27,157 bases of DNA from Planctomycetaceae bacterium UBA4732 (GTDB lineage Bacteria > Planctomycetota > Planctomycetia > Gemmatales > Gemmataceae). Below the pieces are notes generated by a model. It searched no databases and had not been told where the DNA came from. It saw nothing but the letters and a program-made list of their open reading frames with translations. Where the stretch lies: positions 5,972-33,128 of the forward strand of contig DHJA01000235.1 in the NCBI GenBank assembly GCA_002404095.1, read 5' to 3'. This document shows, piece by piece, positions 11,503 to 23,905 of the stretch (position 1 is its first letter; the number at the start of each line of letters is the position of its first letter). A program made the translations under genes and the position numbers.

Positions 11503-13212
<1,710 letters not shown>

Positions 13213-13246
13213 TCAATGGAACCTTCGAGATAAGGGACTCGCAATC

Positions 13247-13564
13247 ATGGCGAAGGAAAAAGACAGCAGCAATCTGAAGATTCGTCCGCTGGACGACCGG
13301 GTGGTAGTAGAGCCGCTGGACGCCGAAGAGAAAACGGCCGGCGGCATCCTGCTACCGGACGCCGCGCAGCAGAAGCCGCAACGCGGCAAGGTGCTGGCGG
13401 TCGGGCCGGGCAAGCTTAGCGACAAGGGCGAACGGCACGCCGTGGCAGTGGCCAAGGGCGACGAAGTCATCTACGGCCGCTACAGCGGCAACGACGTAAA
13501 AGTGGACGGCCGCGATGTGAAAATCATGCGCGAGAGCGACATCCTCGCTAAAGTGGTGAAATAA
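13247..13564 (+). CDS. groS: GroES co-chaperonin
   Basis: This 105-residue Hsp10 protein caps GroEL rings. It has KIRPLDDRVVVEPLDAEEKT, then the mobile loop with the GroEL-binding AGGILLPDAAQQKPQRG (about 31-47), and ends with the beta-hairpin region and IMRESDILAKVV. It is the only groES in the window and lies between the two groEL genes, so it may serve both. The N-terminus is about ten residues longer than in E. coli. It sits 34 bases after groEL1 and 120 bases before groEL2; an F2 palindrome fills the second gap. Confidence 0.95.
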   Translation: MAKEKDSSNLKIRPLDDRVVVEPLDAEEKTAGGILLPDAAQQKPQRGKVLAVGPGKLSDKGERHAVAVAKGDEVIYGRYSGNDVKVDGRDVKIMRESDILAKVVK

Positions 13565-13575
13565 CGTCAGTTCCC

Positions 13576-13655
13576 GGCGAGCCGGGAGCGTAAGCGACCG
13601 GAGTTTCAGTCAATCGCTGACACCTTACTCCGGTCGCTTACGCTCCCGGCTCGCC
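13576..13655. repeat. F2 palindrome, intact copy
   Basis: Two perfectly complementary 28-base arms (13576-13603 and 13628-13655) begin with GGCGAGCCGGGAGCG and enclose a 24-base loop. It lies between groES and groEL2. A second copy at 22206-22411 has been split by another element. A hairpin this strong could attenuate transcription or protect the groES mRNA end; there is no T-run, so it is not a standard terminator. Confidence 0.9.
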
Positions 13656-13684
13656 GAATCGATGAAAAACGGAGATCATTCAAT

Positions 13685-15313
13685 ATGGCAAAGCAACTGC
13701 TCTATACCGACGAAGCGCGTAAGAAGCTGTTGGCCGGCGCCGACAAGCTGGCTCACGCCGTCGGCGTCACCCTCGGGCCGACCGGCCGCAACGTCATCCT
13801 CGACAAGTCCTTCGGCGGGCCGACCGTGACCAAGGACGGCGTGACCGTCAGCAAGGAAATCGAACTGGCCGACCCGTTCGAGAACATGGGCGCCAAGCTC
13901 GTCAACGCCGTGGCCCAGAAGACCAGCGACGTGGCCGGCGACGGCACCACGACCGCCACCATCCTGGCCCTGTCGATCTACCAGGAAGGGCTGCGCAACA
14001 TCACGGCCGGCGCCAACCCGATGGCCATCAAGCGCGGCATCGAGAAAGCTGTCACGGCCGTCGTTGATGCGCTGAGCAAGATGTCCAAGAATCCTAAGAA
14101 GATGTCGCGTGAAGACGTGGAATACGTCGCCAGCATTAGCGCCAACAACGACCCGAAAATTGGCAAATTGATGGCCGACGCCTTCGAGCGCGTCGGTCAG
14201 GAAGGCGTCATCACCGTCGAAGAGGGCAAAACCTCCGAGACGACGCTGGAGTTTGTCGAGGGTATGCAGTTCGACAAGGGCTACATCTCGCCGTACTTCA
14301 TCACGACGCAAGACATGACCTGCGAGCTGGAAGACGCCTACATCCTCATCTACGAGAAGAAACTGTCGAGCGTCCGCGACATGCTGCCGCTCCTGGAGAA
14401 GGTGGCGCAGACGGCCAAGCCGTTGCTTATCCTCGCCGAGGACGTGGAAAGCGAAGCGTTGGCGGCCCTCGTGGTCAACAAGCTGCGCGGCGTCCTTCAG
14501 GTGTGCGCGGTCAAGGCGCCCGGCTTTGGCGACCGTCGCAAGGCCATGCTCGGCGACATCGCCGTGCTGACCGGCGGCGAGTTCATCAGCGAAGACCTCG
14601 GCCTCAAGCTCGAAAACGTCCAGCTCGAACAACTCGGCCAGGCCAAGACGGTCAAGGTCGAGAAGGAAAGCTGCACGATCATCAGCGGCGGCGGCAAGAA
14701 GGAAGCGATCAAGAAGCGCGTCGATCAGATTCGCAGCCAGCGCGACCAGACCGAGAGCGAGTACGACAAGGAAAAGTTCAGCGAACGGCTGGCGAAGCTG
14801 GTGGGCGGCGTGGCCATTGTGCGCGTCGGCGCCGCGACGGAAGCGGAGATGAAGCAGACCAAGGGCCGCGTTGAAGACGCCCTGCACGCCACTCGCGCGG
14901 CGGTGGCCGACGGCATCGTGCCCGGCGGCGGCGTGGCGCTGCTGCGTTGCATTCCGGCCGCGAAGGACGTGGCCAAGACGCTCGAAGGCGACGAGAAGCT
15001 CGGCGCCGAGATCGTGACGCGCTCGCTGGAGAAGCCGATTCGGACCATCGCCGAGAACTCCGGCGTGGACGGGGCGGTGGTGGCCGACGAAGTGCGCATG
15101 CGCAGCGAAAAGTCCGTGAACATTGGGTATAATGCTAACACGGGCGAGTACGTGGATATGTTCAAGGCCGGCATCGTGGACCCGACGCGGGTGACGAAGT
15201 CGGCTCTGACGAACGCCGCCAGCATCGCCGGCCTCATGCTCACGACCGAGGTGATGATCACCAAGATCGATGAGGAGGAGCCGGCCAACAAGGTGCATGG
15301 GGCGATTCGGTAA
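13685..15313 (+). CDS. GroEL chaperonin, copy 2 (no GGM tail)
   Basis: A second full-length Hsp60 subunit, 542 residues. ATP-site residues ([11 protein letters not shown], Asp86), [13 protein letters not shown] and [15 protein letters not shown] are intact. It ends in [18 protein letters not shown] and lacks the Gly-Gly-Met tail of copy 1, so the ring cavity and clients probably differ. A GGAG ribosome site precedes the ATG by about a dozen bases. Several planctomycetes carry multiple groEL genes; copies without the tail are often thought to be specialised. It is not a recent duplicate of copy 1: the two differ throughout, including extra residues near 115 ([15 protein letters not shown]). 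Confidence 0.93.
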
Positions 15314-15322
15314 GCGAAGAGT

Positions 15323-15383
15323 TTGTCCTATAAGTCCCATACGTCCTATAAGTCCTATAGGACGTATGGGACTTATAGGACAA
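15323..15383. repeat. F1 palindrome copy A
   Basis: Two perfectly complementary 28-base arms (15323-15350, 15356-15383) flank the five-base loop AGTCC. The arms are made of 9-bp units GTCC-Y-ATA-M read in tandem (GTCCTATAA, GTCCCATAC, GTCCTATAA). It lies between groEL2 and dnaJ and ends 23 bases before the dnaJ start. Related copies are at 19939-19995 and 23851-23905. Confidence 0.9.
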
Positions 15384-15406
15384 GCTGAAACTGCGAGCGA
15401 AGCGAC

Positions 15407-19876: not shown

Positions 19877-19938
19877 AGAACGTCGTCGCCGATTCCGAGG
19901 ATGCGCCCGTCGGAGTGGCGTCTCTATTGGTTCCATAA

Positions 19939-19995
19939 GTCCCATAAGTCCTATAAGTCCCATAGGTCCTATAGGACCTATGGGACTTATGGGAC
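19939..19995. repeat. F1 palindrome copy B
   Basis: The 24-base arms (19948-19971, 19972-19995) pair with one mismatch and no loop. The 9-bp units read GTCCCATAA, GTCCTATAA, GTCCCATAG, GTCCTATAG and then turn over. It lies 95 bases before the chosen start of the CRTAC1-type gene; translating through it gives the spurious KSHKSYKSH-type peptide. Confidence 0.88.
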
Positions 19996-21868: not shown

Positions 21869-22194
21869 GCGGCAAAGTCACCGTGGACGACAAGCCGGTT
21901 ACCGCCGGCCAAGTTTCCTTCTTCGCGGCGGACGAAAAGGTCGGCGCGGGGTTGTGTGCGGGGACCATCGGGGCTAACGGCGAATACAAGGTTTTCTCAG
22001 AGGGCAAAACGGGGGCGCCGCTCGGGAAGTACAAGGTGACGGTAACGCCTTCGATGGTACCGCCAACGGGTGGAGGCGCCGCCCCGGCGACGCCCTACAA
22101 CTCCAAATACTCTGATTCCAAAGCGACGCCTTTGTCGCTGGAAGTGGTGAGCAGCCCGGCGGCGGGGGCTTACGATTTGAAATTGACCAAGTGA
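21859..22194 (+). CDS. Carboxypeptidase-regulatory-like domain protein, lacking its signal peptide
   Basis: This 111-residue ORF reads VSGKVTVDDKPVTAGQVSFF...GANGEYKV...GAPLGKYKVTVTP, the beta-sandwich pattern of the small transthyretin/carboxypeptidase-regulatory-like lipoproteins common in planctomycetes. Those normally begin with a signal peptide and a lipobox Cys. Here the same frame upstream of the GTG reads DAGCGGPPQVAT, the typical start of a mature lipoprotein, but the signal peptide is missing and an in-frame stop lies at 21760. It overlaps the CRTAC1-type stop by ten bases. It is probably a remnant produced by a deletion that joined the two genes; a coupled GTG start is possible. 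Confidence 0.55.
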   Translation: MPVSGKVTVDDKPVTAGQVSFFAADEKVGAGLCAGTIGANGEYKVFSEGKTGAPLGKYKVTVTPSMVPPTGGGAAPATPYNSKYSDSKATPLSLEVVSSPAAGAYDLKLTK

Positions 22195-22205: not shown

Positions 22206-22411
22206 GGCGAGCCGGGAGCGTAAGCGACCGGAGATGGTTTCAGCGATTGCACGGAACTCCGGTCGCTTACCAGTACTTTCAAAATGTACTCCTCACGCTC
22301 CGCGTGAGGAACAACCAACGCCCCTAATGTGTTCCTCACGCTCTGCTCGCCGTTCCTCACGCGGAGCGTGAGGAGTACATTTTGAAAGTACTGTTACGCT
22401 CCCGGCTCGCC
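22206..22411. repeat. F2 palindrome, copy interrupted by F4
   Basis: The left arm (22206-22233) is identical to that of 13576-13655. The right arm is split: 22257-22270, then the F4 element, then 22398-22411. Removing the element and one TTAC restores a perfect 28-base arm and a 79-bp unit. It lies between the convergent ends of the 111-residue ORF and the TPR gene, eight bases from the latter's stop. Confidence 0.92.
22271..22393. mobile_element. F4: 123-bp MITE-like element with TTAC target duplication
   Basis: Perfect 42-bp terminal inverted repeats (22271-22312, 22352-22393) start CAGTACTTTCAAAATGTACT and enclose 39 bases. The element is flanked by TTAC on both sides (22267-22270, 22394-22397), and its host site is known from the intact F2 copy. 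It encodes nothing, so it must have been moved by a transposase supplied elsewhere. CCTCACGC occurs several times inside in both orientations, so each end also folds into its own small hairpin. Confidence 0.9.
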
Positions 22412-22418
22412 CGCGCTA

Positions 22419-23840
22419 TTAGCGCCCTTGTGCTTTCGGCATCGCCGCCAGTCGCGCCTGCACGTCCTGTCGCCAGGGCGCGTCCGGCGCCAGCCGCAAC
22501 GCCTGCTCGAAACCGGAACGGGCCTCGGCGTTTTGGCCGTCTTCGGCCAATGTTTCCGCGAGGCGCAAGTGAAGGTCCGCGAACTCCGGGTTGCAACGCA
22601 CGGCCTGACGAAGCGCGGTCAGCGCCTCAGCCCGCCTACCCAGATGCTCCAGAGAAAGCCCAAGGGCCATCAACGCGAAGCCGTAGTCCGGCTTGATGGC
22701 CAGCGCCTGACGCGCCGACGACTCCGCTTCACGAAACAACGCTTCCGCCCCCGTGCGGCCCTCAGCGCCTTGCTTGCTCAAATCTTCCCCCTCCTCGAAC
22801 AAGAGGAGAGCCAGGTAATAATGTGTTTGCACTTTATCCGGCGCCAGGCGCAATGCCTGCCGCAAGGCCTGTTCGCTGCCGGGATAGTCGCGCATCTGGG
22901 CGAAGCACTGACCCAGCAATAAAGGAGCCAGGTAGTCGTCGGGATATTCCGCCGTCATCGGCCGTACAATGGCGACGGCTTCCGGATAGTGTCCGGCGGA
23001 TTGAAGGGACTCGACCAGGCGGTAGCGATTCTTTTTCTTGACCGCCCAGAGAAGATATTCGTTGACGAACGGATCGACCCAATGGAGGTCTTTGGGCAGA
23101 CGGTCGGCTTGGGCGCGGTACTGGTCCGCCCTTGCCGCATCGCCCAACCTCTCACATACGGCCGCCAGTTGCGCGCTCGCGCTTTGACGCGCGAACGGAC
23201 TGCCGAGACAGCGGAGCAAGTGGGTGCGCGACTTATCCCAGTCTTGTCGGGAAATGGCTAAGAGGGCTTCGTCGAAGTTGGCCCGATCATCTTGCGGCTG
23301 GCGATCAAGGACGTGGCGGATATGGGCGCCGGCTTCGTCGAAGCGCCCGAGAATCATCAGCGTCTCCGCCAGCGTCAGCCGGGCCGCGGCGGCGCCTTCG
23401 TCCGCATCGGGGCAGCGTTCGACGGCCCGCCGCAGATAAGGCAAAGCGGCTTCCCGGTCTCCTTGATTCACAAGCGGCCCGGCCTGAAAATACGGCCAGC
23501 GCGGGTTGCCCGGATCGAGGCGTTCCGCCTCGGCAAAGCATGGACCACTTTCCGCGTCGAGTTCATTGGCCAGGAAGACTTCGCCCAGATCGGCCCAAGC
23601 CTTGGCGGAACGCGGCTCCTTTTGCACACGTTCGCGGACGGCCTGAATAGCGGCAACGACGGCCGGCTCCAGGTTGTCGCCTTTGGCCTCGGGCGGCGTC
23701 GGCGGAGTGTGCGAGGGGCCGACGAACCGCAGGATGATTACGACGGCCGCCACAGCCACGATCAAGAGGAGGCCCGCCAGCAGCAGACGCCTACCGAGGC
23801 CGAGGGGACGCCGGGGCGGGGGATTAGGGATGGCGGTCAT
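22419..23840 (-). CDS. Membrane-anchored TPR protein
   Basis: The 473-residue protein has a short proline- and arginine-rich N-terminus and one transmembrane helix (RLLLAGLLLIVAVAAVVIIL, about 18-37). About ten TPR units follow, for example EALFREAESSARQALAIKPD, then YGFALMALGLSLEHLGRRAE. TPRs bind partner proteins, probably on the outer side of the membrane; no specific role can be named. ATG at 23840 was chosen over the TTG at 23855. The F1 copy C palindrome begins ten bases upstream, so no standard ribosome site is seen. It is divergent from the P-II-type gene. Confidence 0.82.
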   Translation of the reverse strand: MTAIPNPPPRRPLGLGRRLLLAGLLLIVAVAAVVIILRFVGPSHTPPTPPEAKGDNLEPAVVAAIQAVRERVQKEPRSAKAWADLGEVFLANELDAESGPCFAEAERLDPGNPRWPYFQAGPLVNQGDREAALPYLRRAVERCPDADEGAAAARLTLAETLMILGRFDEAGAHIRHVLDRQPQDDRANFDEALLAISRQDWDKSRTHLLRCLGSPFARQSASAQLAAVCERLGDAARADQYRAQADRLPKDLHWVDPFVNEYLLWAVKKKNRYRLVESLQSAGHYPEAVAIVRPMTAEYPDDYLAPLLLGQCFAQMRDYPGSEQALRQALRLAPDKVQTHYYLALLLFEEGEDLSKQGAEGRTGAEALFREAESSARQALAIKPDYGFALMALGLSLEHLGRRAEALTALRQAVRCNPEFADLHLRLAETLAEDGQNAEARSGFEQALRLAPDAPWRQDVQARLAAMPKAQGR

Positions 23841-23850
23841 ATGGTAGTAT

Positions 23851-23905
23851 CTCAATTAGTCCTATAAGTCCTATACGTCCTATAGGACTTATAGGACTTA
23901 TTGAG
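23851..23905. repeat. F1 palindrome copy C, between divergent starts
   Basis: The 25-base arms (23851-23875, 23881-23905) pair with one mismatch around the loop CGTCC. Units read GTCCTATAA, GTCCTATAC, GTCCTATAG. It fills 55 of the 95 bases between the start codons of the TPR and P-II genes, so it is not a terminator here and must overlap promoter or leader sequence of at least one gene. Confidence 0.88.

Follow-up and report, generated by a model that had tools for sequence, protein, structure and literature searches.

The window, a stretch of 27,157 nucleotides from contig DHJA01000235.1 of Planctomycetaceae bacterium UBA4732 (assembly GCA_002404095.1, called G000 here; 6.80 Mb, 299 contigs, 90% complete), carries at 22206-22411 a palindromic repeat, F2, whose right arm is split by a 123-bp element, F4. 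The neighbours of F4 are a short ORF ending at 22194, which has no Pfam match, and a convergent TPR-domain ORF on the minus strand (22419-23855); a tRNA scan of the whole window gave no hit. The features of the locus, together with a second F2 of the window, are listed below (C, L and G with a number denote contigs, loci and genomes, respectively).

22206-22233, plus strand: F2 left arm, a REP hairpin of subfamily A (CCGGGAGC-GTAA-GCGACCGG) with the tetraloop GTAA at 22220-22223 (script check, mini-hairpin fold)
22234-22256, no strand: F2 spacer separating both REPs (sequence)
22257-22270, minus strand: F2 right arm up to the insertion, comprising the inner REP half CTCCGGTCGC and TTAC (script check)
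22267-22270, no strand: target-site duplication copy 1, TTAC; on the other strand, loop GTAA (script check, 4-mer comparison)
22271-22393, no strand: F4, 123-bp MITE (BLAST, script check)
22271-22285, plus strand: F4 left transposon end CAGTACTTTCAAAAT (comparison with C98, C213 and the IS of relatives)
22286-22312, plus strand: F4 left core REP, with hairpin TCCTCACGC-TCC-GCGTGAGGA at 22290-22310 (REP flanking the C49 RAYT gene; fold)
22313-22351, no strand: F4 39-bp middle (script check)
22352-22378, minus strand: F4 right core REP, inverted (script check)
22379-22393, minus strand: F4 right transposon end, inverted copy of 22271-22285 (script check)
22394-22397, no strand: target-site duplication copy 2, TTAC (script check, 4-mer comparison)
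22398-22411, minus strand: F2 right arm beyond the insertion, consisting of the outer REP half GCTCCCGGCTCGCC (script check)
13576-13655, no strand: uninterrupted F2 REPIN (two inverted REPs), between the Cpn10 and Cpn60 genes

The original prediction, made from the letters of the window, had described an F2 right arm split by a 123-bp insert with perfect 42-bp ends, a 39-bp middle and TTAC on both sides, and all of these numbers were confirmed. The F4 arms were identical over 42 bp and differed at position 43, and removal of the insert with one TTAC restored a perfect 28-bp F2 arm, 22257-22270 and 22398-22411 when joined being the exact reverse complement of the left arm (script). As had also been proposed, F2 is older than F4 at this locus, and F4 has no coding capacity, 123 bp being too short for a transposase gene. 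The F2 at 13576-13655, previously taken as the empty site, does have the same 28-bp arms with a single TTAC, but it is a separate F2 copy; for the insertion in the window, the other arm of the split F2, which is uninterrupted, serves as the built-in control.

Folding of the 206-bp stretch gave -90 kcal/mol, compared with -31.2 (sd 3.4) for shuffled sequences (z -17.5; 0 of 200 as good). A chance palindrome was ruled out by this comparison and by a copy of F4 on C101 (position 20037) that is identical over 123 of 123 bp. The identical copy also fits the recent insertion that had been read from the perfect ends, but does not prove it, since palindromes can also be corrected to perfection.

Elsewhere in the window, two Cpn60 (GroEL) genes lie either side of a Cpn10 gene (11503-15313) and are 71-80% identical over the repeated stretches reported; the uninterrupted F2 REPIN sits between the Cpn10 gene and the second Cpn60 gene of this region. 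A further palindromic repeat, built of 9-bp units GTCCYATAN, was seen at 15320-15386, 19930-19995 and 23851-23905.

REP hairpins, RAYT genes and the make-up of F4

F2 is a pair of REP hairpins, and each arm on its own can form a small hairpin whose tetraloop is GTAA. Besides subfamily A, the REPs comprised subfamilies B (CCGCGACC-GTNA-GGGAGCGG), C (CCGGGTCGC-GTAA-GCGCCCGG) and D (CCGGGGGC-GTAA-GCCCCCGG). Shuffled sequences folded as well as the mini-hairpin in 30 of 200 cases for A and 22 of 200 for B, which are mismatched subfamilies, and in 0 of 200 for D. The loop was GTNA in 75 of the 79 intact left arms of a first 1.23-Mb sample of G000, and 223 arms of the whole assembly matched GAGCCGSGRSCGTNAG. 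With its closing pair, the GTNA loop fits d(cGNNAg), which the title of Nakano et al. (2002; cited in PMC5090098) names among four stable DNA tetraloop motifs.

Ten Y1-transposase loci were found in G000, eight of them above the Pfam cut-off. The Y1 gene on C250 lies between D-type REPINs and that on C175 between B-type REPINs (both genes above the Pfam Y1_Tnp and below the NCBIfam cut-off), indicating that the F2-type repeats are REPINs with RAYT-like genes; subfamily A, the window's type, was not seen at any of these ten loci. Six of the ten (L151, L152, L153, L155, L156 and L157, on C46, C250, C175, C49, C143 and C154, respectively) lie amid repeated hairpins of their own kind, so that several separate REP-RAYT systems coexist in this genome.

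Each 42-bp arm of F4 is composed of a 15-bp transposon end and the REP of a third RAYT. The F4 core consists of two inverted REPs identical to those that flank, on both sides, a RAYT-like gene on C49, which passed the Pfam model Y1_Tnp (24.8, cut-off 23) and missed the NCBIfam model REP_Tyr_transpos (52, cut-off 80); a gene in G021 with 58% identity to it is flanked by the same hairpin. The outer part of the arm occurs with another core, as copies on C98 and C213 carry CAGTAGTTTCAAAAT after GTAA, followed by a different core hairpin. These two copies share the first 15 bp of the F4 end (with S for C at position 6), the IS of relatives described below share the first 12 bp, and the C98 copy is complete, with GTAA on both sides. 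The transposon end is thus short and the core exchangeable. Transposon ends of 42 bp, as originally predicted, were therefore ruled out, since C98 and C213 share the first 15 bp only and the RAYT-flanking REPs the inner part only; the end measures about 15 bp, and the remainder of the arm is a REP hairpin.

Other combinations of ends and cores were also seen. A decayed REP on C13 (L100:80-130; C13:~80), found once in the 1.23-Mb sample, adjoins a CTGTACTTTCAAAC end, apparently decayed, together with GACGCTGAAATTCTCAGCGTC, the hairpin of a third core. In G011, a genome of another genus of the same family, the MITEs (L250-L261) have CAGTAG / CAGTAGTTTCAA ends and a core formed by a long palindrome (GACCCCACCCCCCAACCCCCTCCCCTAAAAGGG...), which in L250 and L259 continues into the outer flanks, as if these had been copied or corrected.

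With such a core, F4 could be a plain REPIN moved by its RAYT, a Y1 (HUH-type) enzyme, via single-stranded DNA into hairpins. The core REPs on both sides of the C49 gene agree with this, as do hairpins with the same TCC/GGA loop at four of six homologous RAYTs (50-58% identity; one of the four in G000) and an earlier report of REP dimers in palindromes (PMC3733652). However, the REP copies at the C49 RAYT have neither CAGTAC ends nor a surrounding F2, the same ends occur with another core, and DDE-type IS show the same ends and target (see below), so we consider it improbable that a RAYT moved F4.

Target sites and target-site duplications

Insertion of F4 is highly site-specific, the site being the REP tetraloop, a feature absent from the original prediction. 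BLAST with F4 gave 78 matches in G000 (40 of the 51 first-look candidates scored), including, besides the identical copy on C101, eight with 91-95% identity over 108-123 bp. Fifty element ends were tabulated by a filter that did not require a REP, namely at most two substitutions in the end, with either a core motif or a gap in the assembly no more than 45 nt away; the C13 copy lies outside it. A REP half-arm (at most one mismatch) followed by GTNA, TNAC or GTAC adjoined 46 of the 50 ends, compared with a background of 739 in 3.03 million strand-positions (2.4e-4; 1.52-Mb sample of G000, true REPs included). The four ends without a standard REP were at degenerate REPs (C98 and C213), at a loop variant (C202) and at a decayed end (C203).

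The ends are not all independent, because the copies on C49, C124 and C130 have common outer flanks, as have those on C79 and C101:157; these copies were either duplicated along with their surroundings or assembled twice, and some copies at contig ends may be the two sides of one insertion. The common outer flanks of the F4-bearing REPs at L138:1-160 (C49), L270:~800 (C124) and L271 (C130) contain GTGTCCCAGTTTGGCGAGC and look as though the nested set had travelled inside a larger mobile repeat.

Eighteen copies in G000 could be read on two sides (16 pairs from the 50-end table, C204:7430 and C180). Fifteen of them lay between the outer and the inner half of a REP (9 gap-free, 6 across runs of N), and all 15 directly flanked copies had equal 4-mers on both sides, 13 GTAA and 2 GTTA as read along the REP. 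Among the remaining three, C8:5413 and C204:13216 had inverted flanks and C203 a decayed right end. The identical copies of the window and C101 are flanked by GTAA, while C283, which matches them fully except for its gap, has GTTA on its two sides; this indicates that the 4-mer belongs to the target and not to the element. An element that carries its own 4-mer was ruled out by these essentially identical copies with GTAA or GTTA on both sides; insertion of this kind, as by IS608-like elements, occurs after TTAC.

When the directly flanked copies of relatives were included, the duplicated 4 bp coincided with the REP loop in 19 of 19 copies compared (15 in G000, 2 in G011, 1 each in G064 and G065). 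At least six of eight stem positions were paired, one bulge allowed, at 17 of the 19 sites vs. 14.7% of the 2914 CGTNAG sites sampled; with bulges disallowed, the corresponding values were 15 of 19 vs. 5.2%. As all 19 sites are REPs, these stem counts do not separate sequence from shape. The proposed non-autonomous transposition with a 4-bp duplication is supported by the equal 4-mers and by the autonomous elements found in relatives.

A direct duplication is not universal. Copies without TTAC-type duplications, which the original prediction had named as counter-evidence, do occur in part, at C8:5413 and C204:13216, each with outer REP halves on both sides, and in the C49/C124/C130 group, whose flanks are inverted as far as they can be read (on one side, or across a gap). 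The GTAC at C8:5413 was rejected as a duplication, because this 4-mer is its own reverse complement and an outer REP half stands on either side; the copy thus belongs to the inverted type. Inverted flanks were also seen in G011 at L250 and L251 and, imperfectly, at L254 and L259. Recombination between two copies in different REP arms would predict such outer/outer flanks together with inner/inner ones.

The constancy of the site might also arise without repeated insertion, if F2 and F4 had spread as one composite repeat or if gene conversion had acted between F2 copies. This would be in line with the 46 of 50 ends lying at the same place of F2-like repeats and with the flanks that the two groups of copies share beyond the REP. 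However, the targets span several REP subfamilies, and F4 stood in both orientations relative to the REP (7 vs. 5 among the 12 copies with a readable asymmetric middle). At 5 of the 15 directly flanked copies (C8:10692, C158, C177:16993, C214 and C283) there was no long second arm within 75 bases, in a check in which the C99 stretch enters an assembly gap and C98 was not properly covered; a single REP thus seems sufficient as a target. Since, in addition, the loops are GTAA or GTTA and match on both sides, and two IS of relatives (L342 and L340) chose the same site, spread without repeated insertion of F4 is very unlikely.

Outside G000, a GTDB scan with the F4 end gave three matches, all in unrelated organisms and taken as chance, and a scan of viral sequences gave none (records near the window's genome were possibly left out of both scans). 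Of 58 genomes of relatives, 4 had matches to F4 itself (E<=0.001), always in or beside the core part, and the 22-bp F4 end pattern was present in 1 of 94 other genomes, with two mismatches.

Related insertion sequences and the movement of F4

Among 102 genomes of the order, exact CGTNACAGTASTTTCRA occurred 14 times in G000, all at known MITE places, 18 times in G011, twice in G015 and once each in G033 and G073. In G015, the end runs into an apparent reading frame at two contig ends, and a 130-nt IS stretch from there, used as a DNA query against 95 genomes of the family, found relatives in seven, including G015, and no match anywhere in G000.

Five full-length IS of 1244-1320 bp (1.24-1.32 kb) with ends CAGTASTTTCAA and terminal CAGT were found in relatives. 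Two of them lie inside the loop of a B-type REP, have CAGTAGTTTCAA ends and are flanked by direct 4-bp duplications: L342 in G064 (1267 bp, frame broken, GCCA/GCCA) and L340 in G065 (1258 bp, frame open, TTGC/TTGC). L344 (G064, frame open) and L337 (G062, frame broken) are of the inverted type, between two inner REP halves, and L335 (G033, frame open) has no recognisable REP and no duplication that could be seen. Derivatives with internal deletions that keep both ends (L341, 726 bp, and L343, 585 bp, in G062; L338, 260 bp, in G077) are intermediates toward MITEs. In the genus g17, five of the seven two-sided IS or deleted IS were inverted (L337, L341 and L344; imperfectly, L343 and L338) vs. 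direct flanks for L340 and L342. A REP-like half was present at each of L339, L333, L307 and L310, which were read on one side only; L336, without an end, was left out. G011 contains MITEs, of which two (L317 and L325) are directly flanked among seven two-sided copies read, as well as L333, which is related to the IS transposase (52% identity over 297 aa).

The intact transposases, P0001 (389 aa, L344) and P0002 (379 aa, L335), have a DDE_Tnp_1 domain, and among all NCBIfam models their best match was ISH3 (NF033541; E 1e-39, 136.4 and 136.3 bits). As 136 bits is below the curated cut-off of 225 for this model, the elements are named ISH3-like rather than ISH3. The motif Y-(2)-R-(3)-E-(3)-R, read by eye, is YRERFGIETSYR in P0001 and YRKRFGIETSYR in P0002. 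A PDB search with the transposase gave no match up to E 1. Among the 120 matches listed of 880, the named homologues were from Gemmata (83-97% identity across 99-100% of the length), along with a G. obscuriglobus homologue of 93% identity across 60%; remote tblastn matches, all below 60% identity, lay in 55 plasmid records, mostly haloarchaeal and several annotated ISH3. Taken together, these matches indicate that the taxonomic family concerned is probably Gemmataceae.

The expectation of a full-length IS with the same ends and 4-bp duplications was thus borne out in relatives, for the first 12 bp and with two duplicated cases, but no such IS was found in G000. Beyond the MITEs, no exact 17-mer of loop plus IS end occurred in G000, and tblastn with the transposase gave no match in the 1.52 Mb searched of 6.8 Mb (22%). 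F4 and the IS have only about 12 bp in common. As no ISH3-like gene was seen in G000 (whole in the DNA search, 22% in the protein search), F4 could instead be moved by an unrelated, non-ISH3-like DDE transposase of this genome, the 12-bp match being convergence on a preferred target; this is very unlikely, because 12 terminal bases, the duplication length and an unusual target within one taxonomic family would hardly be obtained twice, and G011 has both the MITEs and the transposase relative.

We therefore conclude that F4 is very probably a MITE of the ISH3-like IS family, with a REPIN core, moved in trans by the DDE transposase into REP tetraloops. In detail, a DDE transposase supplied in trans would recognise ends of 12-15 bp (CAGTASTTTCAA...) and join them to target DNA cut with a 4-nt stagger on either side of a REP hairpin's tetraloop (GTNA or GCNA), and gap repair would then copy the loop into a direct duplication, TTAC = GTAA in the window. 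The REPs that serve as targets are members of RAYT-associated REPIN families. What lies between the two ends is interchangeable, and in F4 it is the REPIN of another RAYT, which stretches the perfect arms to 42 bp. The enzyme that moved F4 in this genome would be an ISH3-like one, or a copy of it since lost or unassembled, and the REPIN would have come between the transposon ends either by insertion into a shorter MITE or by capture through template switching, both of which are possible.

A bolder version, which we regard as possible but rather doubtful, is that the ISH3-like transposase reads DNA shape: it would recognise the extruded REP hairpin with its stable tetraloop and duplicate exactly the loop, and REPINs would serve as the landing pad of a mobile family that itself carries REPINs. 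If so, the inverted-flank copies could arise from two ends joined to the loops of two hairpins.

Comparison with known systems

REPs are common in bacteria, and several transposons prefer them as targets. To our knowledge, there is no settled answer for DDE elements on how REPs are targeted. In the present case, the duplication coincides with the loop, the opposite REP arm is often a built-in empty site, and the non-autonomous and full-length elements are both in hand, so that recognition of the sequence by a DDE transposase can be told from recognition of the hairpin by experiment. IS110-type elements have been reported to use RNA-guided targeting (PMC11208160, PMC11187229).

The ISH3 family, one of IS4-related DDE elements, is described as having 1225-1500 bp, CRGT ends, 4-5-bp duplications and the motif Y-(2)-R-(3)-E-(3)-R (De Palmenaer 2008, PMC2266710). 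The IS of relatives agree with it in size, CAGT ends, motif, best profile match and, where direct (two of the five full-length copies), the 4-bp duplication. They differ in being bacterial and aimed at REP loops, and in scoring 136 of the 225 bits, whereas in the 2008 survey ISH3 occurred in archaea only and its duplications, typically of 5 bp, lay between A and T (PMC2266710).

Known REP-targeting IS include IS1397, ISKpn1 and ISPsy8 (IS3), IS621, ISPa11, ISPpu9 and ISPpu10 (IS110), ISRm22 (IS4) and ISRm19, and the families named for REP targeting are IS3, IS110, IS4, IS256 and IS5, with ISH3 not among them (PMC1525189). The present elements likewise insert into REPs; however, the known ones are autonomous and of other families, while F4 is a MITE with a REPIN core. 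For IS1397, the insertion point is reportedly the palindromic unit's loop, and 3-4 bp are duplicated.

REPs or REP dimers inside palindromes have been reported for T. roseum GTAG-23, H. neapolitanus CGTC-1 and A. variabilis GTAG-15, the T. roseum dimers lying inside CCGSSCC(n3,4)GGSSCGG (PMC3733652). Section 7 of that paper mentions no transposon ends, duplication or transposase, all three of which are described here for the present elements. As in REPIN and RAYT systems (PMC3116915, PMC2817692), the REPs of F2 subfamilies B and D, like those of the F4 core, each lie on both sides of a Y1 transposase gene in G000, but F4 adds transposon ends and a 4-bp duplication. Among the titles and abstracts searched, none was found to describe ISH3-like IS and MITEs aimed at REP tetraloops with REPIN cores.

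We know of no RAYT system that makes a 4-bp duplication. Similar to other bacterial MITEs, F4 is short and non-coding, with terminal inverted repeats, a target duplication and transposase-bearing relatives, while its strict site choice and interchangeable REPIN core set it apart from them. The present case also shows how long perfect palindromes come about in these genomes when separate mobile repeats, each served by an enzyme of its own, become nested in one another.
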